Source of the DNA: a virus
Reading direction: 5' to 3' (one strand)
Length of the DNA stretch: 20,798 nucleotides
Virus record (IMG/VR): IMGVR_UViG_3300028025_001813
Coordinates: 1-20,798 of that record
Position 1 is the first letter of the stretch, and every line of letters starts with the position of its first letter. The position numbers and the translations under genes were made by a program. The notes beneath the pieces were generated by a model. The model had not been told where the DNA came from, made no database searches, and worked only from the letters and a program-made list of their open reading frames with translations. This document shows positions 1,077-20,228 of this stretch, piece after piece.

Positions 1077-1340
1077 ATGGCATTAACTAAAACAACTAAC
1101 ATTGACCAAATTACAGTAACTGAAAATGGCATAGTATTGTATCGGGAAGTTACTCGCATATTAGAGGATGGTATTCAACTGTCACAAACTTACCACAGAA
1201 CAAGCTTAATACCAGCACAAGACTTAACAGGCATACCTGATAATGTTGTAGCTATTTGTAATTTAACTTGGACTCCAGAAGTAATCGCAACGTATAAAGC
1301 ACAACAAGAAGCCAATGCTAATAGATTAGGAGCAGCATAA
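1077..1340 (+). CDS. Small fibre-region protein, unknown function
   Basis: The 87-residue product has no signal peptide or membrane segment. It starts with a beta-prone half (TKTTNIDQITVTENGIVLYREVTRI) and ends with a helix (TPEVIATYKAQQEANANRLGAA). Similar small proteins accompany fibre genes in aquatic phages, where they may be fibre adaptors or chaperones; that role is inferred. The start is well supported by AAAGGAGA six bases upstream of the ATG. The end of the gene (GGAGCAGCATAATG) is base-for-base identical to the end of the first fibre gene, and it doubles as the ribosome-binding site for the next gene, whose ATG overlaps this stop. Confidence 0.6.
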   Translation: MALTKTTNIDQITVTENGIVLYREVTRILEDGIQLSQTYHRTSLIPAQDLTGIPDNVVAICNLTWTPEVIATYKAQQEANANRLGAA

Positions 1341-2587
1341 TGACTACAGTAGTATCAGGCTCATATCCAGCCGTAAATAGTGATAGCGATGTAACCATAA
1401 ATGGTCTTACTGTTGGTAAGGGTGGTGGTGCGGTTGCTAGTAATACGGCTGTTGGTGCTACAGCATTAAATGCAAACACTACAGGAGTAGGAAATGTGGC
1501 GGTAGGACAAAATTCTTTATTGTCTAACACCACAGCTAATTACAACAATGCTTTTGGTGCGGCATCTTTGTTTAGCAACACAACTGGCACGAACAATGTG
1601 GCTATGGGTGATGCGTCTTTATATGCAAATACTACAGGTTCTAACAACACCTCTATTGGTGCTACTGCATTAAGATTTAACACCACCGCATCTCACAACA
1701 CAGCAGTAGGTTATCAAGCTGGGTATACAAATATTACTGGCACGCAATCCACTTATTTAGGTTCTCGTGCTGGTTATAATGCAACTGGAAACTATAACAC
1801 TATTGTTGGTGATTATGCTGGTCAAGGTATAACTACTGGAACAGGTAATTCATTTTTAGGTCAAGGTGCTGGAAACTTAGTTACAACTGGTAGTAATAAT
1901 ACCATTATTGGTCGATATGATGGTAATCAAAGCGGTCTAGACATGCGTACATCTAGTAAATCTATTGTGATATCTGATGGTGATGGTTTACCACAATATG
2001 TAGTTGGTTTTGCTCCGAATGGTCCTGGTGCTTATAGTGGAACTGGAGGCTATACGACTATTGGTGCAGGGGGAACTTCTGCAACTTTGTATAACGGAGT
2101 TATTGGTCTAAATGGAAATGCGGCTACAAACAGGGGTTCTGGCATACAAGGCTACATGGATGGAACGCAGGCTTATGCTTTAGGTGCATATAGCGTTATT
2201 GTTGGTGGCGGCAGTAATGGTTCTTTTGCTGTTAAAAATCTTACTGGCGGTGTTTTTCTAAGTGGCACAGGGGCAACTTCTTGGACTGCCGTATCTGATG
2301 AAACACGCAAAGATATTATTGAACCAATTACAGGCGGTTTAGCTAAAGTTGCAACACTTCGCACAGTTATTGGTAAATTAAAAACCGATGAAGAAGGCAC
2401 ACGCAGACCCTACCTTATTGCTCAAGATGTCCAAAAAGTATTGCCTGAAGCGGTTACTGAAGCAGAAGATAGAGAAGGAAAACATTTAGGTCTGTCTTAT
2501 ACTGAAGTTATTCCACTTTTGGTAAACGCAATTCAAGAACTTAACGCAAAAGTAATTGCTTTAGAAGCGCAATTGGGAGCTAAATAA
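1340..2587 (+). CDS. Repeat-containing trimeric fibre with beta-roll head and S74 chaperone domain
   Basis: This 415-residue fibre protein has three parts. Residues about 35-203 hold ten repeats of near-constant 17-residue period, of the form N-T-A-V-G-x-x-A/S-L/G, resembling the left-handed beta-roll repeats of YadA-like trimeric adhesins. Residues about 204-316 are Gly-rich and beta-prone. From about residue 317 there is a second S74 chaperone domain: VSDETRKDII, with Ser319 and Lys324 in the positions of the self-cleavage pair, and then LIAQDVQKVLPEAV. A coiled coil (VNAIQELNAKVIALEAQL) closes it. The protein is expected to trimerise, cleave itself and form part of a host-binding appendage. 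Both the start and the stop form TAATG junctions with the neighbours. Confidence 0.82.
   Translation: MTTVVSGSYPAVNSDSDVTINGLTVGKGGGAVASNTAVGATALNANTTGVGNVAVGQNSLLSNTTANYNNAFGAASLFSNTTGTNNVAMGDASLYANTTGSNNTSIGATALRFNTTASHNTAVGYQAGYTNITGTQSTYLGSRAGYNATGNYNTIVGDYAGQGITTGTGNSFLGQGAGNLVTTGSNNTIIGRYDGNQSGLDMRTSSKSIVISDGDGLPQYVVGFAPNGPGAYSGTGGYTTIGAGGTSATLYNGVIGLNGNAATNRGSGIQGYMDGTQAYALGAYSVIVGGGSNGSFAVKNLTGGVFLSGTGATSWTAVSDETRKDIIEPITGGLAKVATLRTVIGKLKTDEEGTRRPYLIAQDVQKVLPEAVTEAEDREGKHLGLSYTEVIPLLVNAIQELNAKVIALEAQLGAK
1442..1948 (+). repeat. Ten in-frame 17-residue (about 51-bp) beta-roll repeats
   Basis: Repeat cores begin at protein residues 35, 52, 69, 86, 103, 120, 137, 153, 170 and 187 of the fibre gene. 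The spacing is 17 residues throughout except one 16. The core is N-x-[AVS]-[VIFM]-G followed five to six residues later by L or G, and an NTT or TTG turn separates cores. The DNA copies have diverged, so selection acts on the protein pattern and these are not recent tandem duplications. Confidence 0.8.
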
Positions 2588-3175: not shown

Positions 3176-4654
3176 ATGTTAAAAGTTGCAGGTGGTGGAA
3201 TATCAGGAGCTCTTGTATATCAAGGCACCTGGGATGCACTCACTAACAATCCTACCTTAACTTCTAGTGTTGGCACTAAAGGTTATTACTATGTAGTGTC
3301 TGTTGCAGGTACAACCAATCTTAATGGTATCACTGATTGGCAAGCAGGTGACTGGGCTGTATTTAATGGCACAGTTTGGCAAAAAGTAGATAACTCAGAA
3401 ATCACTTATGTAAGTAATGTTGCTACAGGCACAGGTCTTACAGGTGGTCCGATCACAACTACAGGTACTATTTCTATTGCAAATACTACTGTGACTGCAG
3501 CTTCTTATGGAGCAGCTAATACAGTAGGTACTTTTACAGTTAATGCTCAAGGTCAACTTACAGCTGCAGCTAATGCTGCTATTGCAATTAATGTAGGTGC
3601 AGTTTCTGGTGCAGTTCCTAATACAGTGAATGTATTAGCTGGTACTGGATTGTCTGGTGGTGGTGCACTTACAGCCAATGTAACTTTAAGCAATACTGGT
3701 GTACTTTCATTTAATACAAGAACAGGTAATGTAAGTCTTTCAAATACTGATGTCACTACAGCTCTAGGTTATACACCAGGCACAGGTAATGGCACAGTCA
3801 CTTCAGTTACAGGCACTTTACCTATTGCATCTTCTGGTGGTGTAACTCCTAATATTTCTATTAGTTTATCTAATGCTACTACTGACGGATACTTAAGCTC
3901 TACCGACTGGAACACATTTAATAATAAACAACCTTCTGGTACTTATGTTAATTCTGTAGGTGCAACTAGCCCTGTAGCTTCCTCTGGTGGAACAACACCT
4001 ACAATTAGCATGGCTCAAGCCAATGCAACTACTAATGGTTATTTGTCATCAACTGATTGGACTACATTCAATAGCAAAGGTACAGGCAATGGTAGTGTAA
4101 CTAGCGTTGATGTATTAGGTGGCACTACAGGTCTTACAACTTCTGGTGGTCCGATTACTACTTCTGGAAATATCACAATTGCAGGTACATTAAATGTAGG
4201 CAATGGCGGTACAGGTGCCACATCATTAACAGCCAATGCAGTTATCATTGGAAATGCAACAGGTGCTGTGACTACTGTAGCTCCTGGAGCTTTAAATAAT
4301 GCACTTATTTCTAATGGTACAAATTGGGTAAGTACTGCACTTCCTGCTTCTGGTGTTACAATTACAGATGACACATCAAGTAATGCAACACGATATATTA
4401 CGCTAACAGCTAATACTTCAGGCACGATTACAACTGTTAATGTGAGTTCTACAAAACTTACATTCAATCCATCCACTGGTGTATTAGGTGCTTCTATTCA
4501 TTCATCAACGAATGGTATCCATATTAACAATTTAACAATTGCATCTAGCTATACACTTCCTAATGGATATGGTGGTATGTCAACTGGTCCAATTACTTTG
4601 TCTAGTGGTGTTGCAGTTACAGTGCCTTCAGGCTCAAGATGGGTGGTTCTATAA
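3176..4654 (+). CDS. Tail fibre protein with GYLSSTDW repeats
   Basis: This 492-residue protein is very rich in Thr, Gly, Asn and Ser. The N-terminal 75 residues (ALVYQGTWDAL, GYYYVVSVAGTTN, DWQAGDWAVFNGTVWQKVDNS) are a carbohydrate-binding-like module often found at the head of phage fibres. The body contains low-complexity beta repeats such as GTGLTGGPITTTGTIS and VLAGTGLSGGG, a segment FNTRTGNVSLSNTDVTTALGYTP familiar from phage fibre shafts, and two copies of ATTxGYLSSTDWxTFNxK. The C-terminus ends in VPSGSRWVVL. It probably forms a trimeric, host-range-determining fibre. The start has AAGGAG at 3165-3170, five bases upstream. Confidence 0.8.
   Translation: MLKVAGGGISGALVYQGTWDALTNNPTLTSSVGTKGYYYVVSVAGTTNLNGITDWQAGDWAVFNGTVWQKVDNSEITYVSNVATGTGLTGGPITTTGTISIANTTVTAASYGAANTVGTFTVNAQGQLTAAANAAIAINVGAVSGAVPNTVNVLAGTGLSGGGALTANVTLSNTGVLSFNTRTGNVSLSNTDVTTALGYTPGTGNGTVTSVTGTLPIASSGGVTPNISISLSNATTDGYLSSTDWNTFNNKQPSGTYVNSVGATSPVASSGGTTPTISMAQANATTNGYLSSTDWTTFNSKGTGNGSVTSVDVLGGTTGLTTSGGPITTSGNITIAGTLNVGNGGTGATSLTANAVIIGNATGAVTTVAPGALNNALISNGTNWVSTALPASGVTITDDTSSNATRYITLTANTSGTITTVNVSSTKLTFNPSTGVLGASIHSSTNGIHINNLTIASSYTLPNGYGGMSTGPITLSSGVAVTVPSGSRWVVL
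3872..4078 (+). repeat. Pair of 57-bp in-frame repeats in the fibre gene
   Basis: Two 57-bp units at 3872-3928 and 4022-4078 encode NATTxGYLSSTDWxTFNxK-type 19-residue modules, 150 bp apart. The spacer encodes another beta-prone segment. The copies differ at many third positions, which indicates old duplication retained by protein selection. Such modules are sites where fibre genes recombine. Confidence 0.7.
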
Positions 4655-4836
4655 TGGTAGATACTCCAAACAGCCACGAATCAGCATGGGATTTATTATT
4701 AATATGGGTAGGTGCTATTTTAGGGCACTTAACTTTATCTTCAGCTGTGTTATGGGCTACATTAATTTACACACTGTTTAAACTGTATATACTTATAAGA
4801 GACGATTTATTTACAAAGAAAAAAAAGAGAGGGTAG
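4654..4836 (+). CDS. Small membrane protein, T7-like (class II type) holin candidate
   Basis: The 60-residue product has a short polar N-terminus (MVDTPNSHESAWD), one long or two short hydrophobic segments (LLLIWVGAILGHLTLSSAVLWATLIYTLFKLYILI) and a strongly basic tail (RDDLFTKKKKRG). This is the layout of T7-type small holins, which also sit just after the tail fibre gene. I chose the ATG at 4654 because it overlaps the fibre stop as TAATG, like other junctions here; an in-frame ATG at 4639 would add five residues inside the fibre gene. A second holin candidate lies beside the endolysin, so the lysis role is plausible but not certain. Confidence 0.65.
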   Translation: MVDTPNSHESAWDLLLIWVGAILGHLTLSSAVLWATLIYTLFKLYILIRDDLFTKKKKRG

Positions 4837-4846
4837 CTCTATCGAC

Positions 4847-5182
4847 ATGGCAACACTATCCATTGTAAAATTTGGTGATGTAGATTCACTAGCCGAATTT
4901 GCTTTTGAAAATGGTTTACAACATAAATTGTTTCAAGAGACATTAATGGATCAAGGATTTACAGTACCTATATTTCCATTGATAGATATAAATATAGATA
5001 ATATTGATGATTGGCTTTTAGCTCATCAAGTAGAACACCAAGCATTTGCTGGTTTATTAGGACTTAATAATCCATTCAATTTGCTAGATGTAGATGTAAA
5101 CAGAGAAGATGATTGGTATGACTGGGTGGCATCACATTTATACATCCATCAACAAATCGCAGCTTCATTAAATTTAACATAA
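4847..5182 (+). CDS. Conserved-looking phage protein, unknown function
   Basis: The 111-residue acidic protein holds two related halves: DSLAEFAFENGLQHKLFQETL and IDDWLLAHQVEHQAFAGLLGL, followed by REDDWYDWVASHLYIHQQIAASLNL. The repeated pattern [DW]-x-[LV]-x-x-H-x-x-[HE]-x-x-x-[AI]-x-x-L suggests a His-containing helical repeat. It has no export signal. It lies between the small holin candidate and the ACP gene, with GAGAGGG about 14 bases upstream as a weakly spaced ribosome-binding site. I do not recognise the family. Confidence 0.6.
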   Translation: MATLSIVKFGDVDSLAEFAFENGLQHKLFQETLMDQGFTVPIFPLIDINIDNIDDWLLAHQVEHQAFAGLLGLNNPFNLLDVDVNREDDWYDWVASHLYIHQQIAASLNLT

Positions 5183-5201
5183 TTCATTTTTGGGGATAGA
5201 A

Positions 5202-5483
5202 ATGGATAGATTAGAGTTATTTCATGCAGTAGCTCGTATAGCCAAACCTGTACATTTGACTTATACGCCTATTGCAAGCTTAGAAACGCCTTTTAAAGAG
5301 GCAAATATTGACAGTTTAGACATACTTTTGATATGTGTTTACTTCAGTGAGTTATATGGGATCGAGGAGGAAGTGGCAAAAAAGATGTTGCCAACCACCC
5401 CCCAGGAAATTTTCAATTTTCTGGAAATCCATAAAACTAAAGAGCCAGCATCTATAGAAGATGCAGTAGGGCAGATTAAATGA
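5202..5483 (+). CDS. Acyl carrier protein-like protein
   Basis: The 93-residue acidic, helical protein carries the signature IDSLDILLICVYFSELYGIEEE. Ser38 in DSLD is the predicted attachment site for 4'-phosphopantetheine, and the helix after it matches recognition helix II of acyl carrier proteins. Such proteins hold acyl chains as thioesters for ketosynthases and acyltransferases in the cytosol. I prefer the ATG at 5202, preceded by TGGGGATAG, over an in-frame TTG at 5190. The stop overlaps the ketosynthase start (ATGA at 5480-5483), so the pair is coupled. No phosphopantetheinyl transferase is in the window, so a host enzyme would have to activate it. The C-terminal extension (EIHKTKEPASIEDAVGQIK) is longer than in a minimal ACP. 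Confidence 0.8.
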   Translation: MDRLELFHAVARIAKPVHLTYTPIASLETPFKEANIDSLDILLICVYFSELYGIEEEVAKKMLPTTPQEIFNFLEIHKTKEPASIEDAVGQIK

Positions 5484-6586
5484 AAATTTATCTTACCCAT
5501 GGCAGAAAAGCATATAGTGAACATATAGACTATTTAGAAGATTTAGCATTTCCTCAAAGGGTGCATTGGTTCCCTGAGACATATAAAAGAGTTGGCACTG
5601 GTGTCTTTTATGTACCACACCTAGTAGCTGACAAAGTGCTAGACCAAGTATTAGCAACAGAGATAAGAGAAAAGCCTATAGGCAAAACTGCTTTTATCTT
5701 AGCTGCAGGAAATACCAACTTTGCTGGGATTAATCCTAGAAAAGTAAAAGATACACAATTAAGTTATGTATATAAGTTTTTACCTTTTACATTAACTCAA
5801 GTGTATGCAGGTCGTATAGCTCAGTCGTTTGGGGCTAATGACTTAATTATGACTGATACGAGTGCGTGTGCATCAAGTATCAAAGTGATGATGGATGTAC
5901 AGGTTTTGATGGACTACTACAATTATGATCGAGTGGTTGTACTTGCAGTAGAAGATCAGATAGCTAATTCTACTTTAGATTTCTTTGGTGAATCTAAAGC
6001 TATCTTAACAGAGGATGATATTAAACCTTCTGCTTTTGATAGTAAGAATTATGGGTTTTATGTAGGACAAGGTGCAGCTTTAGCAGTGTTTATGTCAGAG
6101 CGTGCTGTGGATAAGTTAGGAGTTACTCCTATTGCTGAATTAAAAGGTGCTTATTCTGCAGGTGAGAAATTAGACAATGCTATAGGACAAAGGGAAGATG
6201 GTGAGGGATTTATGAGGGCTATAGAGGGTGCTTTACACTACTCTAAAGTCAGTTCAGATGAGGTAAAGGTAATAAAAACTCATGGGACAGGTACCCGGTC
6301 TAATAATATTTCAGAACGGGAAGCCACCACCAAAAAAATTCCTGATTTTGTAGCCACATCCTACAAACCAAAAATAGGACATACAATGGGTGCTAGTGGG
6401 CTTATAGAGACATTGATGTTATTTGAAGATATGGCTCAGGGATTTATTCCAGAGATACCAAATCGAACAGAACATGATACAATATTTTTATCAGAAAAAG
6501 GTTCTGTTCCAGAGGGATATGTTATGACTTTAGCAGCTGGAATGGGTAATATATATTCAGCTGCAATATTTAATACAAGGATTTAA
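5480..6586 (+). CDS. Beta-ketoacyl-ACP synthase (KAS I/II, FabF-like)
   Basis: The 368-residue thiolase-fold protein has the full condensing-enzyme signature: nucleophile Cys130 in TDTSACASS, His268 in KTHGTGT with Asn275 and Glu279 following, and Lys296 plus His301 in YKPKIGHTMGASG. It should perform decarboxylative Claisen condensation on acyl-ACP, presumably loaded on the ACP encoded just upstream. It is about 40 residues shorter than typical FabF (about 410), mostly in the N-terminal part. The C-terminal gating loop GFGGTN of FabF reads GMGNIY (Met355 in place of the gating Phe), which may change chain-length selection. No ketoreductase, dehydratase or thioesterase is present, so the host pathway would have to supply them. 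The ATG overlaps the ACP stop. Enzyme class is clear; product is unknown. Confidence 0.88.
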   Translation: MKIYLTHGRKAYSEHIDYLEDLAFPQRVHWFPETYKRVGTGVFYVPHLVADKVLDQVLATEIREKPIGKTAFILAAGNTNFAGINPRKVKDTQLSYVYKFLPFTLTQVYAGRIAQSFGANDLIMTDTSACASSIKVMMDVQVLMDYYNYDRVVVLAVEDQIANSTLDFFGESKAILTEDDIKPSAFDSKNYGFYVGQGAALAVFMSERAVDKLGVTPIAELKGAYSAGEKLDNAIGQREDGEGFMRAIEGALHYSKVSSDEVKVIKTHGTGTRSNNISEREATTKKIPDFVATSYKPKIGHTMGASGLIETLMLFEDMAQGFIPEIPNRTEHDTIFLSEKGSVPEGYVMTLAAGMGNIYSAAIFNTRI

Positions 6587-6587
6587 T

Positions 6588-7037
6588 ATGGCTGAAATGG
6601 TAGATAGTTCAAAAGATTTGCTAGATACGGATAAAATTATCCAAAGAGCAGTGATGAATATTCGTTCTCCTTATTCTTACGATCAAGTTTATAATTCCAT
6701 AGCAGAAGAGTTAAAACAACCTGGCACACAATTCATTCGTGAAGGCAATACCTTATTTATTGTCCATTACGATCATGGTCGAGTAGGCACATTTCGTGCT
6801 TTAAACGCAGACACCGCATTAAATTACATCAATAGTAGTTGGTTATTTATCAAAGCTTGTTATGACATGGGTTATGACACACTTATTACAGAATTTTATG
6901 ATCCTACTATTGTTAATATCTTTAGAACTATATCTAAAAACCCGCCTTACCCCGAAATGGGATACAACGTTAAGCAAAGCGTTGATGGATGGATAGGCAC
7001 TATTAAATTAGGTCCAGACCGAGACGGAGAACTATAA
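6588..7037 (+). CDS. Phage protein with possible GNAT-type acyltransferase fold
   Basis: The 149-residue product follows the ketosynthase after one base. After an N-terminal helical part, the order strand (NTLFIVHYDHGRVGTFRALN), helix (ADTALNYINSSWLFIKACYDMGYD), strand (TLITEFYD), helix (PTIVNIFRTISKNP) and strand (MGYNVKQS) resembles the GCN5-related N-acetyltransferase core. The usual Q/R-x-x-G-x-G/A acceptor loop is not clear, so this could also be a structural protein with a degenerate fold. Similar small proteins precede internal virion genes in podovirus-like phages. If active, it could use acyl-ACP made by its neighbours, but that is speculation. Its stop overlaps the next start as TAATG. 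Confidence 0.5.
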   Translation: MAEMVDSSKDLLDTDKIIQRAVMNIRSPYSYDQVYNSIAEELKQPGTQFIREGNTLFIVHYDHGRVGTFRALNADTALNYINSSWLFIKACYDMGYDTLITEFYDPTIVNIFRTISKNPPYPEMGYNVKQSVDGWIGTIKLGPDRDGEL

Positions 7038-8002
7038 TGGGTGGAGTAGTCAAAGCAATAGGTAATGTTGTTAGTGGTGTAGCTGAAGCTGTAGGTGATG
7101 TAGTTGAGGTTGTAGCAGAAAATCCTATTGTTGCTGCAGCTGCTTTTGCTGTAACAGGCGTTCCTTTGCCAGGTGTACTTGCTAGTTTACCAGCTCCTGT
7201 GTCAGCTGCTGCTATTTCAATGGCATCCACTGCAATTCAGGGTGGTGATTTTGGTGACATTATTAAAGCAGGTGCTGCCGGTGCATTAGGTAGTGCTGTG
7301 GGTGGTGCTGTAGGTAGTAAAGTTGCAAGCTCATTTGGTGACACTGCAGGTAAGATTGCATCAAGTGCAGCAGGTGGTTTTACAGGCACATTAGTTGCTA
7401 CAGGTGATGTTGGCACAGCTCTTAAAGGTGGTGTTATGGGTGGTGCTGGTGCTGCACTACAAGCAGGTATCTCATCTGGTTTAGAATCTATTAAACAACA
7501 ATTTCCAGGAAGCACAACAACTCAACAAGCTGGTCCAAGTGGCTACCAAGTAGGCGAACAAATAGCTACCTCACCATTTGGAACTTTTGAGACTGTGGCT
7601 CAAACATCTCCACAATGGTCTCCAACATCTCCATTTACACAAACATTTGATACTTTACCAAGTATGCAATATAACCCTAGTCTTGTAGAAAGAGCTATTG
7701 GCGCTGCTGGTCCAGCTGCAACTGAATTAGCAAGTGATGCACTTAAACCTACATTAGCTTCTGCATTAGGATTTGGTGGTCAACCTACAACACAAAGTAC
7801 TGGTCCAGCCCCTACAGGTGGTCCAGGTGTAGCAGTGACTGGTGAAGGTACTGCAGTTAATCCAGCTGCTGCTTCAGCATTAGCACAAGCATTAAGGGTA
7901 GGCGATCCTGGTGCACCATTATTTGGCACAGAAGGTAAAGGACAACAACAAGCAGTATGGAATACTGCATCACTTAAATTTAAAGATGAAATAGGAGGTT
8001 AG
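7037..8002 (+). CDS. Gly/Ala-rich internal virion (DNA-ejection type) protein
   Basis: The 321-residue protein is dominated by Ala, Gly, Val and Thr. Residues 1-150 are a run of weakly hydrophobic, glycine-zipper-like helices (VAAAAFAVTGVPLPGVLASL, GAAGALGSAVGGAVGSKVASSFG), suited to membrane insertion or channel formation during DNA ejection. Residues 155-300 are Pro/Gln/Thr-rich and probably disordered, and the end is basic (WNTASLKFKDEIGG). It is the first of four consecutive large genes of this type, which is the usual position of internal core proteins between tail and packaging genes in podoviruses. The assignment rests on composition and synteny, without a named domain. Confidence 0.6.
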   Translation: MGGVVKAIGNVVSGVAEAVGDVVEVVAENPIVAAAAFAVTGVPLPGVLASLPAPVSAAAISMASTAIQGGDFGDIIKAGAAGALGSAVGGAVGSKVASSFGDTAGKIASSAAGGFTGTLVATGDVGTALKGGVMGGAGAALQAGISSGLESIKQQFPGSTTTQQAGPSGYQVGEQIATSPFGTFETVAQTSPQWSPTSPFTQTFDTLPSMQYNPSLVERAIGAAGPAATELASDALKPTLASALGFGGQPTTQSTGPAPTGGPGVAVTGEGTAVNPAAASALAQALRVGDPGAPLFGTEGKGQQQAVWNTASLKFKDEIGG

Positions 8003-8004
8003 TT

Positions 8005-9081
8005 GTGGCTAAGATACTAGAGGCATTAAGAGTAAATGTAATGGGAGACTTAACACTTCCTGCATTAGCTCAAGTTATACAATCAAAAGGTCGTGGTCCA
8101 GATACCATACTAGCTCACATTACACCTAAAGAAGCAGAGAAGCTTAAACGTGCTGGTGGTGCAGGTACTATTAATCCAGATACAGGCTTGCCAGAGTTCT
8201 ATGAGGACTACTATACTCCTACAGACACAGGCGGCTACCCATCATTTATGTCATCTAGCCTACCAGAATATACACCTACAGCATCTTATGCTCCAGATTT
8301 CTCATTCACTGGTGGTGGCTATGAGCCAGACTATTATACAGGTGGCGGTTACGATTACTCCCCCTCAGCTGTTTCAGCTGCCCCTGAATTCTATGAAGCT
8401 CCTGGTGCTTACACAGGTGGCATTACATTTGGTGAAACTCAAAGAGAATTACAACCTATTGAATCATTAATGGATTTAAGAACACCTACAAGTGAAAGAC
8501 CTGGTGTTGGTATTCCTCAACTTCCTAGAGATACTATTGAAATTCCTAGAGGTGGTGCAGCTACAGAACGTGGATTTACAGAGAAATTAAAAGAATATTT
8601 AACTAATCCAGAAGTTTTAGGCAAGCTTGGTATTGCAGGATTAGGTGCAATTACTGGCGCTAAAACTGCTAAAAAAGCTGCTGAACAAGGTAGAGAGGCT
8701 AAAAAAGAAACTCAAGATATAGCAGCTCCATACGCAGTTAGAGGTCGTGATCTTGTGGGTAGAGCAGAACGAGGTGAATTAACACCATCCAATTTACAAA
8801 CTTATCAAGCAACTCAAGCAAGAATAGCTCAAGGTGTTGAATCTCGTGGCGGTGTAGGTGCTCAACAAGCAGCTACTCAACTAGCTAGTTTAAGAAATGA
8901 ATTACTACAAAACCAATATGACTATGGTCTTAAGATTTTAGGTATTGCTGACAATATTGCATTGGGTGCAATCAAGACTGGCTTAGAAGCAGATCGTTAT
9001 GTTAATGAATTAACTGGTAATTACTTTAAAAATATTGCTGCAACGGTTTATGGCAGTGCTGTACAACCTCCTAGGGCTTAA
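8005..9081 (+). CDS. Internal virion protein, probable DNA-ejection component
   Basis: The 358-residue product starts at GTG 8005, preceded by a near-perfect AGGAGGTT at 7993-8000. The N-terminus (DTILAHITPKEAEKLKRAGGAGTINPDTGLPEFY) is a segment I associate with virion proteins of aquatic podoviruses. A Tyr/Pro/Gly-rich flexible linker (about residues 65-150) follows. The C-terminal half is helical: a glycine-rich hydrophobic helix (LGKLGIAGLGAITGAKTAKKAAEQ) and a long charged helix from QGREAKKETQDIAAPYAVRGRDLVGRAERGEL to the end, containing ARIAQGVESRGGVGAQQAATQLASLRNELL. This fits a protein ejected with DNA that crosses the host envelope. No enzymatic motif is visible. Confidence 0.6.
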   Translation: MAKILEALRVNVMGDLTLPALAQVIQSKGRGPDTILAHITPKEAEKLKRAGGAGTINPDTGLPEFYEDYYTPTDTGGYPSFMSSSLPEYTPTASYAPDFSFTGGGYEPDYYTGGGYDYSPSAVSAAPEFYEAPGAYTGGITFGETQRELQPIESLMDLRTPTSERPGVGIPQLPRDTIEIPRGGAATERGFTEKLKEYLTNPEVLGKLGIAGLGAITGAKTAKKAAEQGREAKKETQDIAAPYAVRGRDLVGRAERGELTPSNLQTYQATQARIAQGVESRGGVGAQQAATQLASLRNELLQNQYDYGLKILGIADNIALGAIKTGLEADRYVNELTGNYFKNIAATVYGSAVQPPRA

Positions 9082-9086
9082 AAATT

Positions 9087-10577
9087 ATGGCTATTTCATT
9101 AAGAGAATTTACAGATATTAACCCTCCAATGTTTCAAGATAGAGTTGCACCTGAAGATGCACCTATGCAAGACATGACAATGGCAGCTACTCCTTATACA
9201 CTTCCTGACAATGTAGGTAAGTCTGGTGGTGAATACTTAAAAACTGTTGGTCCAGCTATTGAAGCTGAAAGAAAAGCCCAAACAGAAAAAGATATATTTG
9301 CTTCAGAAGTTAAAGCTAATGAATTTGTTGGTAAAGCTAAAATGGGTGAACGTATGGCTGAAGCTTACAAAACAGAAAAAGCTGCTATAGAAGGCTCTCC
9401 TGAATTTGCAAATTTAAGAAAGCTTGAAGATGATCTTATGAACACGGAGTTTATTCCTACTCAAGATAATGCTAAAGACCTTGGTGGTTTGTTTAGTCTA
9501 ATTGGTGTAGTAGGTTGGGCTATTGGTGGCTCTGGTAAAGACAGTGCTATTCAAGCTATGACTGCTATGAATGGAATGTTATCTGGTTATCAAAAAGGTA
9601 GAACTGATTTATACAAACGCGAAAAAGATATTTTTGATACAAAAATGAAAGCGTTACAAACAAAAACATTAACACTTTCTAATCGTTTAAAACAAATTGC
9701 AGAACTTGCATCTATTGACACTAAAGCAGCTAATCAAGAAGCTGATAATTTATTTAATCAAGAACAAGCTACCTTTTATAAGCAAATTAAAGATAAATTT
9801 GGTTTAGCTGCTACACTTGAGTTTGCTAAAAACAATGTGAAAGCCATTGATAAAGCTTTTGAGTTTAAGCTTAAAGAAGAAGAAAATGCAGCTAGGAAAA
9901 AAACAGAAGCTAGAGGTGCTGTTCAACAACAATTCATGGCTCAAAGAGCAGTTAGTAGTTTAGGTGGTGCAGTCTCAGCTATGGATGCAATTAGTCGTTT
10001 ACCAGCTACAGCTACTTCTGGTGTCTTACCTAACTTGCAAACCAAAGATGGTATGTTTAATTACATTAGAAATTCCTTTGGCAGAACAATGAGTGCTAAT
10101 GAATCTAAATCTGTAGAAACTTTATTTACTGGTATTACTCGTAACTTAGCATCTATTGAAGCTTCAGGTGCAGCCACTGGTTTAGTAGGTTTAGCTACGC
10201 AAATGGAAAAACTTATTCCTAAAGAAGGTGATACTGCGTTTGATGTTGCATTAAAACTTGCTGACATTAGACGTGTTGCTGTAGAAAACATGAGACCTTT
10301 AATTGCATCTGGATTATTAAGACCAGAACAAGTTGTGGAAGCTAATCGTTTGATTACTAAAATGGAACAAGTAGTTCCATATACAGTTAATGAAGTTATG
10401 GATGCACGTTATGCAGGCAAAACTAATTATCGTCAGTCAATGGAAAATATAGTTGAAAAAGGCAATGTTAAAGGAGCCTTTGCTACTGAAGCAGAAGCTG
10501 ATATAGCTTTTCAACAAGGTAGAATTAAAAAAGGTGACCGAATTAAAATTGGTAATGCTACAGGAGTTTATGAATAA
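9087..10577 (+). CDS. Large helical internal virion protein
   Basis: The 496-residue product is almost entirely helical. A hydrophobic, glycine-rich stretch (LGGLFSLIGVVGWAIGGSG, about residues 131-149) could insert in a membrane. It is followed by a long coiled coil (QKGRTDLYKREKDIFDTKMKALQTKTLTLSNRLKQIAEL). The last 35 residues (FATEAEADIAFQQGRIKKGDRIKIGNATGVYE) look like a separate small beta module found at the end of several phage virion proteins. Ejection or core-stack protein is the best guess from position and composition. Five bases separate it from the upstream stop. Confidence 0.55.
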   Translation: MAISLREFTDINPPMFQDRVAPEDAPMQDMTMAATPYTLPDNVGKSGGEYLKTVGPAIEAERKAQTEKDIFASEVKANEFVGKAKMGERMAEAYKTEKAAIEGSPEFANLRKLEDDLMNTEFIPTQDNAKDLGGLFSLIGVVGWAIGGSGKDSAIQAMTAMNGMLSGYQKGRTDLYKREKDIFDTKMKALQTKTLTLSNRLKQIAELASIDTKAANQEADNLFNQEQATFYKQIKDKFGLAATLEFAKNNVKAIDKAFEFKLKEEENAARKKTEARGAVQQQFMAQRAVSSLGGAVSAMDAISRLPATATSGVLPNLQTKDGMFNYIRNSFGRTMSANESKSVETLFTGITRNLASIEASGAATGLVGLATQMEKLIPKEGDTAFDVALKLADIRRVAVENMRPLIASGLLRPEQVVEANRLITKMEQVVPYTVNEVMDARYAGKTNYRQSMENIVEKGNVKGAFATEAEADIAFQQGRIKKGDRIKIGNATGVYE

Positions 10578-10579
10578 TC

Positions 10580-11983
10580 ATGCCATTTAAACCAGATCAA
10601 GATTTAATTGAAACACCATCTACACCAAAATTTAAAGCTGATGTAGAAATGTATCAAGAGCCTAGTAAGGGTGAAAAAGCTAAAGCGTTAGCTTATGGTG
10701 CAGCTACAGGACTTGCTGGTAGTTTAGGTGAATTAGAAAAGTTTGGTGCTTATACTGTTCCAGAGTTTTTAGGTTTAAGAGAAGAAGGTACACGAGAAAA
10801 CATGGGGTTTGGTCGTGAAACTTTTTTCCCTACAATTAAAGAAGCTCAACAAGGATTAAAAAAATTAGGTGTTGAAAGACCTCGTGAAGATGTAAGTGGC
10901 TATGAAACTGGTGGTGAAATTATTGGTGGTTTTGGTACTGCTATTCCTGGTTTAGTTAAAGGCACAGCTAAAGGCTTATTAGGTGTGGCATCTCGCACAA
11001 GTGAGAAGGCTGCAAGACAAGCAGAACAATTAGGTTTTAAATTATCTCCAGCTCAAGTAAGGCAAGACATTCCTACAAGCGCTCAAGGAGCTACATTTTA
11101 TGCTAAGGACAATCAAACTCTAGCTAACAAACTTTCATCTAAAGCTACTGGTCGTGAAGCTACAGAAATTGGTCCAGACTTTGTAAGAGAACGTTTAAAC
11201 ACTTTAGGTGGTGAGTTTCAAAACTTATATAAAGATAAAATATTTAATATCGATCAAAATGCAGTGGATGCTTTAAGACAAATTGCTAATGTTGAGAATT
11301 TACTTCCTCCTTCTGTTCAAGTAGCAGCTGTTAAAAATACAGCTAATACTATCTTAGGTAAGTTTGATGCTTTAACTTCAAGAGCTGGTGCTATCCCTGG
11401 AACCTTTGGTGTAGAAGGTAATGCACTCCAAAGAATTAGAACTGATTTATTACAAGCTGCAAGATCATCTACATCAAGACAAGATGCTCATGCTATCTAT
11501 GAATTAGTAGATGCTATTGATGGTTCAGTAGCACGCAATCATCCACAGATAGCAGCAAAGCTAGATGAGTTAAGACCTTTATATAGAAACACAATTATTT
11601 TAGAAGATTTGGTTAGAAATGGTGGAATACGTCAAGGTAACATTAGCCTTGAAAGTTTAGGCAATATGCTTGGTGCTCGAAGAGAAGGTGTAAGAAGAGT
11701 TCAAGGTCAATTAGATCAGCTAGGTGAGTTAGGTCGCGAACTAAAACTCAGAGCACGTTGGCAAACTGTAGGTGATGCAGCTACAGAATCAACAGATATT
11801 TTAAAGAGAGCTTTAGGCACTGCTTTAAACACTGGAGCTTCTGCGCTTGGCTTAAGATCAAGAGGTGCTCGTGCAGTTCAAAGAGGATTGAATGAAGCAC
11901 CACTATCACCTGTTACTCGTGCTGGTTTAGCATCTGGCGCAGGCACTGCAACAAGACCATTAAACAAAAACGAAGAGGAATAA
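10580..11983 (+). CDS. Large internal virion/structural protein
   Basis: This 467-residue helical, Arg/Lys/Glu-rich protein has glycine-rich helical patches (ALAYGAATGLAGSLGELEKFGAY and GGEIIGGFGTAIPGLVKGTAKGLLG) in the first third and amphipathic helices in the rest. It has no Cys and no signal peptide. I see no lysozyme or transglycosylase motif, which some ejection proteins carry. The last 60 residues (RRALGTALNTGASALGLRSRGARAVQ-like) are basic and might contact DNA. It closes the set of four large virion-type genes, two bases after the preceding stop. Function beyond structural protein is unknown. Confidence 0.55.
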   Translation: MPFKPDQDLIETPSTPKFKADVEMYQEPSKGEKAKALAYGAATGLAGSLGELEKFGAYTVPEFLGLREEGTRENMGFGRETFFPTIKEAQQGLKKLGVERPREDVSGYETGGEIIGGFGTAIPGLVKGTAKGLLGVASRTSEKAARQAEQLGFKLSPAQVRQDIPTSAQGATFYAKDNQTLANKLSSKATGREATEIGPDFVRERLNTLGGEFQNLYKDKIFNIDQNAVDALRQIANVENLLPPSVQVAAVKNTANTILGKFDALTSRAGAIPGTFGVEGNALQRIRTDLLQAARSSTSRQDAHAIYELVDAIDGSVARNHPQIAAKLDELRPLYRNTIILEDLVRNGGIRQGNISLESLGNMLGARREGVRRVQGQLDQLGELGRELKLRARWQTVGDAATESTDILKRALGTALNTGASALGLRSRGARAVQRGLNEAPLSPVTRAGLASGAGTATRPLNKNEEE

Positions 11984-13580: not shown

Positions 13581-14045
13581 ATGAATTATATTTATAAAAT
13601 ATTTATCTATGGATTATTGTTTTTAAGTATTAATTCTTTTGCAGAAACAACAACAATAAATCAAAAAGGGATGCCGGTACCAAGTGCTATGGCTCCCTCC
13701 ATGTCAGCATTTTCACAAGATGTTTGTGCAGTACCTATCAGTGCAGCAGGAAATTTAGGCTTTATCTCTTTATCAGGTGGCACAGTATTACTTGATGAGA
13801 ACTGTGTAAAGATTAAGTTAGCAAAAACTCTCAACGATTTAGGACTTAAAGTAGCTGCTGTATCAGTGCTATGCCAAGACCCAAAAGTTTGGGAGGCTAT
13901 GGAGATGAGTGGCTCGCCATGTCCTATGGGTGGTGCTGTAGGATTTACAGCTAAGAAAGCTTGGTATGAAAAAGACCCTGAGAAGTTTAAAAAATTATAT
14001 GGTCAGAATTACACTCTTCCTACTTCTCCTGCTACTAAGGAATAA
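13581..14045 (+). CDS. Exported Cys-containing phage protein
   Basis: The 154-residue product starts with a clear Sec signal peptide (MNYIYKIFIYGLLFLSINSFA, predicted cleavage before ETTT). The mature part has four Cys residues (in DVCAV, DENCVK, VLCQD and SPCPM), likely forming disulfides in the periplasm. A conserved-looking core is KLAKTLNDLGLKVAAVSVLCQDPKVWEAMEMSGSPCP. It has no lipobox, so it is not an obvious outer-membrane spanin. The location just before the lysis block suggests a role at the host envelope, such as lysis or exclusion of other phages, but no family is recognised. Its last 80 bases overlap the next gene. Confidence 0.6.
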   Translation: MNYIYKIFIYGLLFLSINSFAETTTINQKGMPVPSAMAPSMSAFSQDVCAVPISAAGNLGFISLSGGTVLLDENCVKIKLAKTLNDLGLKVAAVSVLCQDPKVWEAMEMSGSPCPMGGAVGFTAKKAWYEKDPEKFKKLYGQNYTLPTSPATKE

Positions 14046-15012
14046 TGCCTATGCTTATTGTTATGCAACTCAATGGACTGATTACGGTCCTGTATTCTCA
14101 AGCCTTGGTGTTGCTCAAGGCACTACTCTACAAGCTTGTCAACAACTTGCGTGTCAACTATATCCTAGCATCCCTGAGTGTGGTCAGCCTGTGGAACCTC
14201 CCTGTCAAGACATTGTTGAATTTCAAAGCATTGCTTGCCAACCTAATTACTCAGGTGCAATTAATCAAAGTAGAACTAAAACGTGCAGCAATAACCAGTG
14301 GACAGATTGGACAACAACTTCTGATAACTGTACACCAAATCCACCAACGTGCATTGAATCTACAGAGACGAGAACTCTAGGATGTTTAAACGGCTTCGAA
14401 GGTTCTATTCAGGAACAGAGAAGTTCAATATGTTCCGATCCATATGGTTCTCCAACTTGGACTGTATGGTCGGAAATATACAATACTTGCAAGATGACAG
14501 CAACGAACCTGAACAATCCATCATCACCAATCAGTCCGATAAGTCCCATGAATCCAAACAGTGTAGTGAACCAAGTCACCACTGCACCTATCATTCAACC
14601 AGAACCTGTAATTGCTCAGGACATGACTGCATTGACAACGACAACGGAAACAGTGACTACTTCGGTAGCCACAGTGAAAAGCGAAACAAACAGCGCATCC
14701 ACTTCTCAAAGTACTACGACGACACAGGGTACAGGGAAAGCACCAGAGGTGCCAAAGGGTAAAACATTAGTTCCTGGATTTGGTATTGTGATGTCTATGC
14801 AACTTATAAATTCAGGATACAATATGCAACAAACACAGATAGAAGAATCAATTAAACTTATACAGGAACAAGATTATGAAAGACAACAAAACATACTCCT
14901 TACATTTGTCAGCGCAAATGATACTGGGGATTATCTTATCCGTGCTAGTGCCAATAGGTGGCGCAGTATATTACGGGATAACCCTCTTCAACGATTTGAC
15001 CTCGACGATTGA
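13966..15012 (+). CDS. Exported protein with two tandem Cys/Trp (thrombospondin-1-like) repeats
   Basis: The 348-residue product begins with a signal peptide (LLLLLLRNNAYA, cleavage before YCYAT). Two tandem repeats follow at about residues 80-123 and 129-175. Each has Cys pairs, G-x-I-x-Q-x-R, a W-x-x-W motif (WTDWTTTSDNC and WTVWSEIYNTC) and a final Cys, similar to thrombospondin type-1-like modules. Residues about 205-260 form a Ser/Thr-rich linker, and the last 85 residues are a helical domain (VMSMQLINSGYNMQQTQIEESIKLIQEQDYERQQ). ATG 13966 lies inside the previous gene; ATG 13999 would leave an equally good signal peptide. The 3' end overlaps the next gene by 137 bases. It probably acts in the periplasm or on the cell surface; the function is unknown. 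Confidence 0.6.
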   Translation: MKKTLRSLKNYMVRITLFLLLLLLRNNAYAYCYATQWTDYGPVFSSLGVAQGTTLQACQQLACQLYPSIPECGQPVEPPCQDIVEFQSIACQPNYSGAINQSRTKTCSNNQWTDWTTTSDNCTPNPPTCIESTETRTLGCLNGFEGSIQEQRSSICSDPYGSPTWTVWSEIYNTCKMTATNLNNPSSPISPISPMNPNSVVNQVTTAPIIQPEPVIAQDMTALTTTTETVTTSVATVKSETNSASTSQSTTTTQGTGKAPEVPKGKTLVPGFGIVMSMQLINSGYNMQQTQIEESIKLIQEQDYERQQNILLTFVSANDTGDYLIRASANRWRSILRDNPLQRFDLDD

Positions 15013-15758: not shown

Positions 15759-16208
15759 GTGAATGTATCAAAAGCTGGCATCGCTCTTATTAAGCACCAT
15801 GAGGGAGTTCGTAACAAACCATACCAGTGTCCCGCAAAACTATGGACAGTGGGAGTGGGTCATTTAATAGGTGATGGCAAAACATTACCAAAGGAATGGA
15901 ATAGAAAATTTACCGATGAGGAAATAGATGCAATTCTTAAATCAGACCTACGTCGCTTCGAGTTGGGAGTACATAAGATGTTACCTAACGTGCCTCTCCG
16001 ACAACATGAATTTGATAGCATTGTTTCTTTTTGCTTCAATCTGGGTCTTGGATGCTTTCAAAGATCAACACTCCGTCAAGCGCTTTTACGCGGAGATAAG
16101 AAGGCGGCTATGGAATCGTTAGTGAAGTATTGTCGTGCAGGTGGTAAAATATTAAGAGGTCTGCAAATTCGCAGACTAGATGAACGTTCACTTTTTGAGG
16201 GCAAATGA
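15759..16208 (+). CDS. Endolysin, GH24 lysozyme (muramidase)
   Basis: This 149-residue soluble lysozyme starts at GTG 15759, directly after the holin stop. The triad pattern E-x8-D/C-x5-T of GH24 endolysins is complete: Glu15 (KHHEGVR), Cys24 and Thr30 (LWTVGVGH). It uses the Cys variant known from lambdoid endolysins such as that of phage 21. Further family marks are GVGHLIGDGK, RQHEFDSIVSFCFNLGLGCFQRSTL and RRLDERSLFEG at the end. It cleaves the MurNAc-GlcNAc bond in peptidoglycan. There is no signal peptide or SAR anchor, so export depends on the holin. Its stop overlaps the next start. Confidence 0.93.
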   Translation: MNVSKAGIALIKHHEGVRNKPYQCPAKLWTVGVGHLIGDGKTLPKEWNRKFTDEEIDAILKSDLRRFELGVHKMLPNVPLRQHEFDSIVSFCFNLGLGCFQRSTLRQALLRGDKKAAMESLVKYCRAGGKILRGLQIRRLDERSLFEGK

Positions 16209-16474: not shown

Positions 16475-16623
16475 AGCCTGGTTTATATGCAAACATTCAT
16501 AAAAAGAGAGCACGCATAGCTCAAGGTAGTGGAGAGCGTATGAGAGCACCCGGAACTAAAGGTGCCCCAACAGCTAAAGCGTTTAAACAATCTGCCAAGA
16601 CTGCTAGAAAAACTAAACGTTAA
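16471..16623 (+). CDS. Tiny basic protein, 50 residues
   Basis: The frame starts at ATG 16471 inside the preceding stop overlap and ends at TAA 16621-16623. The product begins MKPGLYANIHKKRARIAQGS and ends GAPTAKAFKQSAKTARKTKR, about 40 percent Lys/Arg/Ala. The MKPGLYANIH and KGAPTAKAF segments recur in tiny phage genes beside the preceding family. It is the last rightward gene, and its stop shares the TTAA palindrome with the stop of the leftward glycosyltransferase. Function unknown, possibly DNA binding. Confidence 0.6.
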   Translation: MKPGLYANIHKKRARIAQGSGERMRAPGTKGAPTAKAFKQSAKTARKTKR

Positions 16624-17360
16624 GGAGCAGGGACTAACTGTCCTTCAAAAGTATATGTCCCAACATGAGCAAGACGAGCCCACGGAGCTCCCCATACCTT
16701 TATCCCGTTTAAACGTGCAATACGACAGAAATGATAATCCTCAGAAAGTAGCCTATTTGTTTCTGGTTCAATCGAGGTTGCAAAGTATTCCACAATCGGA
16801 GCCTGAGCCTTTATTGATCCTCCTAGATCAGTCACATCATTATTATATGTAGGGCATACATCCTTTAACTTCTCAAAGACTTCACGTTTGATAAGCATAA
16901 AGCCTGTACCACCATTCCATATCTCAACTGGATCATTCAATGGCACTACTGTTTCACCAGCATAGCCTACAAGATTCACTACAAAAGAACCTGTGTAATA
17001 CTTTAAATCTTCCTGCTTCACATTATTCTCAATAGCTTTCTTAAGGCTTGGAAAGTTAATTTCTTTTTTAGGATATAGTCCACAGATAATATCTTTATCA
17101 GCTTCAATCATCTTGACTAGATCATTAGGATTAAATCGAATGTCACTATCAATAAACATCATGTGTGTAGCATCAGAGTTTAAGAAGCCATGAGACAAAG
17201 CGTTCCTTGCTCGTGTGATAAGGGATTCATTAAACATAAAACTAAATACAGATTCAATACTATTCTGATCTAATACTCTTTGAAGCATTAAGATTGATTG
17301 AGTGTAGTAGCCATAACATTGACCACCATACATAGGTGTTGCGATAAATACTTTTGCCAT
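16620..17360 (-). CDS. GT-A-type glycosyltransferase
   Basis: The 246-residue product starts KVFIATPMYGGQCYGYYTQS, a nucleotide-sugar-binding opening. It has the metal-binding DxD motif as Asp71-Ser-Asp73 in MMFIDSDIRF, followed by IICGLYPKK, a WNGGTGFMLIKREVFEKL segment and SEDYHFCRIARLNGIKVWG. Together these fit Anp1/family-2-like transferases with a GT-A fold, cytosolic and without membrane helices. Targets could be modified phage DNA bases, host surface sugars or virion proteins; the sequence does not decide. The ribosome-binding site is AAGGGGAT, seven bases upstream. It is the last gene of the leftward block and meets the late genes tail to tail with a four-base overlap. Confidence 0.8.
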   Translation of the reverse strand: MAKVFIATPMYGGQCYGYYTQSILMLQRVLDQNSIESVFSFMFNESLITRARNALSHGFLNSDATHMMFIDSDIRFNPNDLVKMIEADKDIICGLYPKKEINFPSLKKAIENNVKQEDLKYYTGSFVVNLVGYAGETVVPLNDPVEIWNGGTGFMLIKREVFEKLKDVCPTYNNDVTDLGGSIKAQAPIVEYFATSIEPETNRLLSEDYHFCRIARLNGIKVWGAPWARLAHVGTYTFEGQLVPAP

Positions 17361-19326: not shown

Positions 19327-20228
19327 TATTTGACAAGGAACCGCCTTGACCCCGGCATTTCTACTACAAATTGCTCATAAACCTCTGGCATAGACTGTTT
19401 AAACAGATCAGAGCTAAAACGCTTTGATGGTTTACTAGAGCGCCATGTCACGAGTGTTGAACCATTGACACTCAAAATATCAGAGTAATCTTGCATAGAG
19501 GCTCTAATAGCAGTCTCTAATTGCTCTGCTTTCTCTTCATATTGCTTAACAACCCCTCTAATCTCTTTTAATTGAGCCACAGCAGTTTCTAGGGCTTGAT
19601 TAGCCACTAAAGACTGCCCATTATCTTGTGGATAGATCAATTTTGTTGCTTCAAGCGATTCTGGAGCTGGTAGTGTGTCAGCCTTGACATGACCCCAATA
19701 CACAGCCATATCTTTTATGAGGTTGTCTTTTTCTTCTTCGGTGAACGTAAAGTCAAACGTCTGAAACTCTTGACCACCAAATAAGACAGCAAGAATGACA
19801 CGATCAACTCGATGAACGGTTGCTTCGTGTAGAATTTGAGCATAATCAGCAGGAGGAATCCTATTGCTATCTGCATCAAACTTATTCCTTGCATTAATGT
19901 TGTAATTCTTTGCTTCGACCAATACTCGACCATCAGCAGAAATAAAATCGAAATGGGAACGTAGCCAACTATGATCTGGATGTGTGAGAGGGTAATCTGC
20001 ATCTTTTAACTCCATGTTTAGTTTGTCTTGTGCTAACCTACCAATAATGGGTTGCATGACATGACCCATCTGAACAGCCTCTATTTGAGACAAATCAGGG
20101 GGATCAATTTTGCCTTGTTTTTGCATGATGACCTCAACAGCTTTGCCATTCATGACCATACGGGTATCAGACGCCCACCAAGCACTATTTCTTATCTCTG
20201 GGGCGAAATCATCTCTATCGTTTGCCAT
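19326..20228 (-). CDS. YqaJ-type viral recombinase/exonuclease
   Basis: The 300-residue product contains the PD-(D/E)xK nuclease core of the YqaJ/lambda-exonuclease group: Asp94 in SHFDFIS, Glu105-Ala-Lys107 in GRVLVEAKNYN, and PPADYAQILHEATVHRVDRVILAVLFGGQEF containing the conserved Gln helix. It should resect double-strand ends in the cytosol to give single strands for the RecT-like partner. The first family motif, usually G-x-x-x-E-P, reads GHVMQP, with Gln59 where Glu is expected. A C-terminal coiled coil (TAVAQLKEIRGVVKQYEEKAEQLETAIRASMQ) and a small end domain follow. The start has GGAGGT five bases upstream and lies inside the end of the coiled-coil microprotein gene. Confidence 0.8.
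   Translation of the reverse strand: MANDRDDFAPEIRNSAWWASDTRMVMNGKAVEVIMQKQGKIDPPDLSQIEAVQMGHVMQPIIGRLAQDKLNMELKDADYPLTHPDHSWLRSHFDFISADGRVLVEAKNYNINARNKFDADSNRIPPADYAQILHEATVHRVDRVILAVLFGGQEFQTFDFTFTEEEKDNLIKDMAVYWGHVKADTLPAPESLEATKLIYPQDNGQSLVANQALETAVAQLKEIRGVVKQYEEKAEQLETAIRASMQDYSDILSVNGSTLVTWRSSKPSKRFSSDLFKQSMPEVYEQFVVEMPGSRRFLVK

Follow-up and report, generated by a model that had tools for sequence, protein, structure and literature searches.

An acyl carrier protein, a ketosynthase and a GNAT-fold protein encoded together among phage virion genes: a possible acylation cassette

The individual enzyme classes considered here, and the logic of HlyC-type acyl transfer, are already known; their combination and setting are new. 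Fatty-acid condensing enzymes of the FabF/FabB type (KAS I/II) use Cys-His-Lys-His catalytic residues. HlyC and ApxIC are acyltransferases with GNAT folds that lack the CoA-binding elements and use acyl-ACP donors, HlyC taking its acyl-ACP from the host (PMC8339906). Rhodobacteraceae prophages carry acpP-fabF-fabG, which has been interpreted as a set of metabolic genes of fatty-acid synthesis (PMC8224337). In podophage ejection operons, the smallest protein (T7 gp14 type) forms the outer-membrane pore (PMC8954989). In the openly accessible literature searched, we found no earlier description of a phage acyl carrier protein together with a ketosynthase or with virion acylation.

Here we analysed a virus record of 20.8 kb (the whole of this stretch is called the window), in which an acyl carrier protein (ACP) and a beta-ketoacyl synthase-type condensing enzyme (KS) are encoded in a co-directional late block amid virion genes (Table 1). 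The initial annotation had described them as a coupled pair overlapping by ATGA in the middle of virion genes, and the coordinates and frames are as claimed: the overlap spans 5480-5483 with both frames intact, a tail-fibre gene lies upstream, an ejection-type region downstream and the endolysin gene later still.

The locus shares features with each of the systems above. Its KS belongs to the same fold family as FabF and FabB, with Cys-His-Lys-His at the same positions, but it is about 25% identical to them, falls in its own clade, has a first 100 residues that do not align with FabF, and carries an invariant Met355 and Gln197. Its GNAT-fold protein recalls HlyC and ApxIC of the RTX systems in fold, in being encoded beside a gene for a membrane-active (here putative) substrate and in its expected acyl-ACP donor; unlike them, it has no sequence match or invariant His, and comes with a private ACP and KS. 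As in the Rhodobacteraceae prophages, phage-associated ACP and ketosynthase genes lie side by side, whereas the cassette is without fabG, includes a GNAT gene and sits among virion genes on contigs that are not prophages. The genes that follow resemble the podophage ejection operons (T7 gp14-gp15-gp16, P22 gp7-gp20-gp16) in having a hydrophobic first protein and then larger ones, but in the cassette phages ACP, KS and GNAT sit just before the hydrophobic gene. The complete genome MW202545.1 (Caudoviricetes sp., Manatee Spring) shares the order ACP-KS-GNAT-gene 1, with identities of 58% for KS, 51% for ACP and 36% for GNAT; only its KS is annotated as such, the ACP and GNAT being hypothetical proteins. 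The annotated start of that KS (locus L001, 19998-21098) is internal, at locus position 20154, and the conserved family start lies upstream, overlapping the ACP gene.

Table 1. Features of the window, with the basis of each assignment or its place in the gene order.
Feature	Position	Strand	Basis or remark
Tail fibre with S74 chaperone	1340-2587		upstream of ACP
492-aa gene			between tail fibre and holin-like gene
Small holin-like gene	4639-4836		weak match
Conserved 111-aa protein	4847-5182		directly upstream of ACP
Acyl carrier protein (ACP), 93 aa	5202..5483	+	family profile, ACP fold, Ser38 invariance
ACP Ser38 codon (DSLD)	5313-5315		
Beta-ketoacyl synthase-type condensing enzyme (KS), 368 aa	5480..6586	+	Pfam, TIGR03150, FabF alignment, PHROG
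KS Cys130 codon	5867-5869		
KS His268 codon	6281-6283		
KS Lys296 codon	6365-6367		
KS His301 codon	6380-6382		
GNAT-fold protein, 149 aa, probable acyltransferase	6588..7037	+	predicted model, fold search, KS adjacency
Gene 1: ejection-region protein, 321 aa, hydrophobic N-terminus MGGVVKAIGNVVSGVAEAVGDVVE; proposed acyl acceptor	7037..8002	+	hydrophobic segment, GNAT association
Putative ejection block, gene after gene 1	8005..9081	+	follows gene 1, conserved in 33 loci; no family match
Putative ejection block, further gene	9087..10577	+	next gene of the block; no family match
Putative ejection block, further gene	10580..11983	+	conserved in 2 loci; no family match
Endolysin	15759-16208		later than ejection-type region

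The genes downstream of the 149-aa gene are large and Ala/Gly-rich, and the opposite strand of the window carries RusA, RecT and RecE-type genes. The 111-aa protein, which directly precedes the ACP in the 38 loci of the window's own subgroup, gave no family match and contains many invariant His, Trp and Asp residues (DDW..HQ.EHQ, HL.IH.QIA). Further along, a 348-aa Cys- and Thr-rich ORF (13966-15012) that overlaps two other open frames (111 and 126 aa; 14045-14762) had no PHROG match, and a glycosyltransferase-like protein (16620-17360, minus strand; phrog_1574, E 2.6e-49) has counterparts in several related loci.

The ACP gene starts with an ATG at 5202, preceded by GGGGAT, and stops at 5483; a TTG at 5190 is also open. 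The single ACP sequence gave a weak match (PDB sequence search, E 0.5), the family profile retrieved ACPs (best E 4e-5; the chains listed were ACPs or carrier domains), and 25 of 50 family members matched PP-binding. The predicted model (pLDDT 92) has the four-helix ACP fold, and the matches listed were again ACP or carrier domains (Z 6.6-7.8). The identity of the ACP is secure at the level of family and fold and weak from the single sequence. The family is acidic (pI 4.05-4.94) and divergent, and D37, S38 and D40 of the DSxD motif are present in all 151 distinct phage ACPs, Ser38 being the expected phosphopantetheine site. Here and below, residue invariance was counted over distinct sequences rather than loci.

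The KS matched the Pfam families Ketoacyl-synt_C (9e-15) and ketoacyl-synt (3.1e-10), its N and C domains scoring 40.5 and 55.2 bits against a curated cut-off of 20.8. Against the FabF model TIGR03150 it scored 101 bits (E 4.7e-29), far under the cut-off of 493.75, which places it in the condensing-enzyme superfamily and not in FabF proper. It also matched phrog_35856 (E 1.6e-38) and FabF structures. Profile searches against the KAS and ACP families, proposed in the initial annotation, thereby confirmed both identities, as did the folds. Cys130, His268, Lys296 and His301 align with the catalytic residues of FabF and are invariant in an alignment of 132 distinct phage KS sequences; with these intact, the enzyme would be expected to catalyse condensation. 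Met355 in GMGN and Gln197 in GQGA are likewise invariant among the 132. FabF usually has Phe at the first of these positions and Glu at the second, and the FabF alignment shows Glu opposite Gln197. In the KS tree, 21 phage sequences lie on one side of a branch with 100/100 support, with FabF-type and type I synthases on the other; the references are few and long-branched, so that the sister group is not fixed.

For the third gene of the cassette, Pfam, PHROG and PDB-sequence searches gave only chance-level matches. The predicted model of its product (pLDDT 88.7, pTM 0.82) has the element order a-a-b-b-b-a-b-a-b-b, which is that of GNAT proteins, and all matches listed in a fold search (VIA-align) were GNAT proteins, the best with Z 11.1 over 125 residues. 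These included RimI, Ard1 and NatC-type N-terminal acetyltransferases and, among viral matches, a protein annotated as internal virion protein A; HlyC- or LuxI-type structures were absent from the matches listed, which carries no weight either way. Conserved motifs are DS(6-7), E41, GNT(53-55), NAD(73-75), F112 and MG(124-125), and the conserved polar residues are D6, S7, E41, N54, T55, N73, D75, N79 and D105. On its modelled fold, the product is a probable acyltransferase. The CoA pyrophosphate loop (R/Q-x-x-G-x-G/A) was not seen in the family, in which LNADTAxNY follows strand b4 with no glycine loop; its absence would fit an acyl-ACP donor, an argument made for ApxIC (PMC8339906), and would also fit a loss of catalysis. 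The adjoining ACP and KS suggest that acyl-ACP is the donor. No invariant His was found in the family (His60 occurs in 42/49 sequences), and Phe112 stands at the usual GNAT Tyr position; without the His of HlyC or the usual Tyr, the protein could be non-catalytic. Membership of the HlyC family was rejected because the conserved catalytic His (His23 in HlyC) is lacking, although the protein may still work like HlyC.

A protein scan of viral contigs yielded 73 loci with KS identities of 51-98%, and scanning with the KS profile gave at least 564 matching stretches. Because one contig can recur under several loci, a locus count given here is the most that the number of independent phages could be. 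The ACP adjoins the KS in 76/76 sequences of the first set (the window itself counted twice), and the order ACP-KS-GNAT on one strand is kept in 205 of the 207 loci that hold all three genes (some repeating one contig). The KS is upstream of the GNAT in all GNAT-anchored loci, and in the five without an ACP the ACP side is beyond the contig end. The survey thus bore out a conserved ACP-KS pair at one locus across relatives, and the distinct phage clade that had been suggested; the notion of a bare pair did not stand, the GNAT being a near-constant third partner. All three genes are under purifying selection, with dN/dS of about 0.03-0.22 for KS, 0.06-0.13 for GNAT and 0.05-0.31 for ACP.

Among 50,697 GenBank phage records, one holds the phage-type KS cassette, namely the metagenomic MW202545.1. 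When bacterial and archaeal genomes were scanned, the phage-type KS turned up in one MAG contig (L076, titled Balneolaceae) with the whole trio present, and neither in 394 other genomes of that phylum nor in 99 of another; the contig is probably viral sequence binned with a Balneolaceae genome. KS matches in Listeria, Enterococcus and Staphylococcus 'phage' records were excluded as relatives, since at 21-27% identity they look like host FabF; OR848703.1, OR846615.1, OR849884.1 and others are probably cases of host DNA contamination in phage records. The phage-only KS branch is widespread in viral contigs and nearly missing from annotated phage records. A recent stray insertion of host genes, which the initial annotation had raised as a possible objection, was rejected in view of the distinct 100/100 clade and the single MAG contig in the genome scan; relatives keep the active-site residues and frame, and the tree does not place the pair within one host genus. 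In the GNAT of L202, what had looked like a stop codon proved to lie outside the gene.

To survey linkage we used as anchor the virion protein encoded just upstream of the cassette, named 'phage stabilization protein' by the depositor of MW202545 and a virion structural protein in PHROG, which gave 80 loci. Among anchored loci with room for the cassette, 31 hold the trio, three hold ACP and KS and end before a complete GNAT, four have the GNAT without ACP-KS, and 26 have none of these genes. In every readable GNAT-positive locus (32/32; 28 with the trio, four without ACP-KS), the next large gene starts with a hydrophobic stretch, mostly Val-rich, of the form M[S/G]AVV..VGDVVE or similar; in gene 1 of the window, the hydrophobic segment covers about residues 31-49. 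Among the 24 clear GNAT-negative loci the next gene never starts this way (0/24), and in four of them a middle part like that of gene 1 occurs within a larger protein that lacks the N-terminal part. The other two of the 26 (L281 and L282) were set aside on account of a very divergent GNAT-like gene with a hydrophobic gene further on; in L281 (7762-8786) and L282, a divergent GNAT-like 146-aa gene is followed by an extra 194-aa gene and then by a hydrophobic gene 1. A Fisher test of 32/0 against 0/26 gives 5e-17, a descriptive value only, since related loci are counted and two of the 26 are open to doubt.

GNATs that accompany ACP-KS group together, and four without it (L290, L298, L321 and L322) form a second clade (100/100). 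L261/L316, also without ACP-KS, has altered GNAT motifs and an altered start of gene 1; it falls in the first GNAT group, where its placement is not fixed. The last product of the MW202545 block is an SLT transglycosylase with similarity to internal virion proteins, and the gene order, resembling that of podophage operons, suggests that gene 1 encodes an ejection protein. The second residue of gene 1 was rejected as an acylation signal by itself, because G/S/A/T at 97% against 79% in control genes is too weak a difference. Because adjacent phage genes frequently travel together, the linkage does not prove that the gene 1 product is the substrate.

In 13 related records (one complete 57-kb genome, the rest possibly fragments) we found no ACPS-type phosphopantetheinyl transferase (PPTase), malonyl transferase or SDR reductase. 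This extends to relatives the lack of a ketoreductase and malonyl transferase in the initial annotation, and agrees with its view that the pair plugs into host metabolism: the host must prime and feed the cassette, and a 3-oxo chain is either processed by host enzymes or transferred as made. The analysis shows the carrier, condensing and GNAT folds, the intact residues, the fixed order and the tie to one kind of downstream gene, and ACP, KS and GNAT probably make up an acyl-transfer module of some kind.

We propose the following route. A host AcpS-type enzyme would prime the phage ACP, and the KS would then lengthen an acyl chain on that ACP with a malonyl group, chain and malonyl alike being supplied by host fatty-acid synthesis. 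The expected product is 3-oxoacyl-ACP, which may be reduced by host enzymes or used as made. The GNAT-fold protein would take the chain from acyl-ACP in the manner of HlyC and pass it to an amine. Gene linkage points to the hydrophobic N-terminal part of the gene 1 product as the likeliest acceptor, and the lipidated virion protein may then pass into the host envelope as the genome is delivered. That the locus is a dedicated acylation cassette with the gene 1 protein as acceptor is a proposal we put forward tentatively. It is supported by the invariant residues, purifying selection, fixed order, GNAT fold, the association with a hydrophobic gene, the differing GNAT-only lineages and the HlyC/ApxIC precedent. 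More tentatively still, the system could be a virus-specific form of protein lipidation, in which a private ACP, a KS and an acyl-ACP-using GNAT attach a fatty chain, perhaps a 3-oxo one, to an ejection protein, so that the envelope of the host receives a lipidated pore or anchor from the virion. The strongest counter-case is a set of three loci (L044, L049 and L054) where ACP-KS, beside a helicase-like gene, seems to belong to the early genes of another phage; in L054 the pair is at 9703-11101 of contig IMGVR_UViG_3300020735_000013, and neither a GNAT nor a gene 1 relative was found on the 51-kb contig. In at least one lineage, therefore, ACP-KS is useful without this GNAT.

Other uses of such a module have to be considered. 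GNATs that join chains from acyl-ACP to small amines include the LuxI-type and OlsB-type synthases. The KS could similarly make 3-oxoacyl-ACP for the GNAT to join to a small amine, giving a signal, surfactant or lipid, with the position among virion genes setting late timing only. The GNAT fold of the third gene is in keeping with this route, as is the absence of a ketoreductase in the 13 records, which would suit a 3-oxo chain being used directly, but the route leaves unexplained why the GNAT goes with one kind of following gene in the virion region and why the early expression site is almost wholly avoided, and we consider it unlikely.

It is also doubtful that the ACP and KS serve to alter the chain length or saturation of host acyl groups, before lysis or for entry into the envelope, with the GNAT as an unrelated neighbour. 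Both are of fatty-acid synthesis families, the prophage acpP-fabF-fabG genes are read as metabolic (PMC8224337) and L054 carries the pair alone in an early region; yet the GNAT adjoins the KS in 205 loci (some repeating one contig), nearly all loci have the late position among virion genes, and a host ACP would suffice for a shift in the pool. Among the outcomes listed in the initial annotation, virion acylation is favoured and a bulk change of the membrane is not, since the linkage implicates the gene that follows in the virion region; for the same reason its suggestion of late action at lysis was not upheld.

Improbable, in our judgement, is a structural role in which the GNAT-fold protein, without any catalysis, helps the ejection protein to assemble while ACP-KS act as a scaffold or regulator. 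The GNAT-like fold of the viral protein named internal virion protein A, the occurrence of the GNAT without ACP-KS and its unusual motifs would suit such a role, but a scaffold needs no catalytic residues, and the four of the KS are invariant in 132 sequences and the Ser of the ACP in 151. The remaining suggestion, that an acidic, divergent phage ACP acts as a decoy that, by binding the host's PPTase or the partners of its ACP, blocks lipid synthesis in the host, is very improbable even though ACPs are known regulators by interaction, because a decoy could do without an active KS and without a GNAT, and both of these are conserved with the phage ACP.

Looking forward, virion lipidation, if true, would represent a new type of phage system, one in which a bacterial virus itself makes the acyl chain carried by a virion protein. 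Some animal viruses have N-myristoylated capsid proteins, a modification of comparable purpose. If true, the proposal would also provide a chemical handle on the way in which ejection proteins of short-tailed phages are inserted into membranes, and a GNAT-fold phage protein without an assigned role becomes a testable enzyme. Even with a different target, the cassette represents a phage-only branch of condensing enzymes, found in at least 564 stretches of viral contigs.
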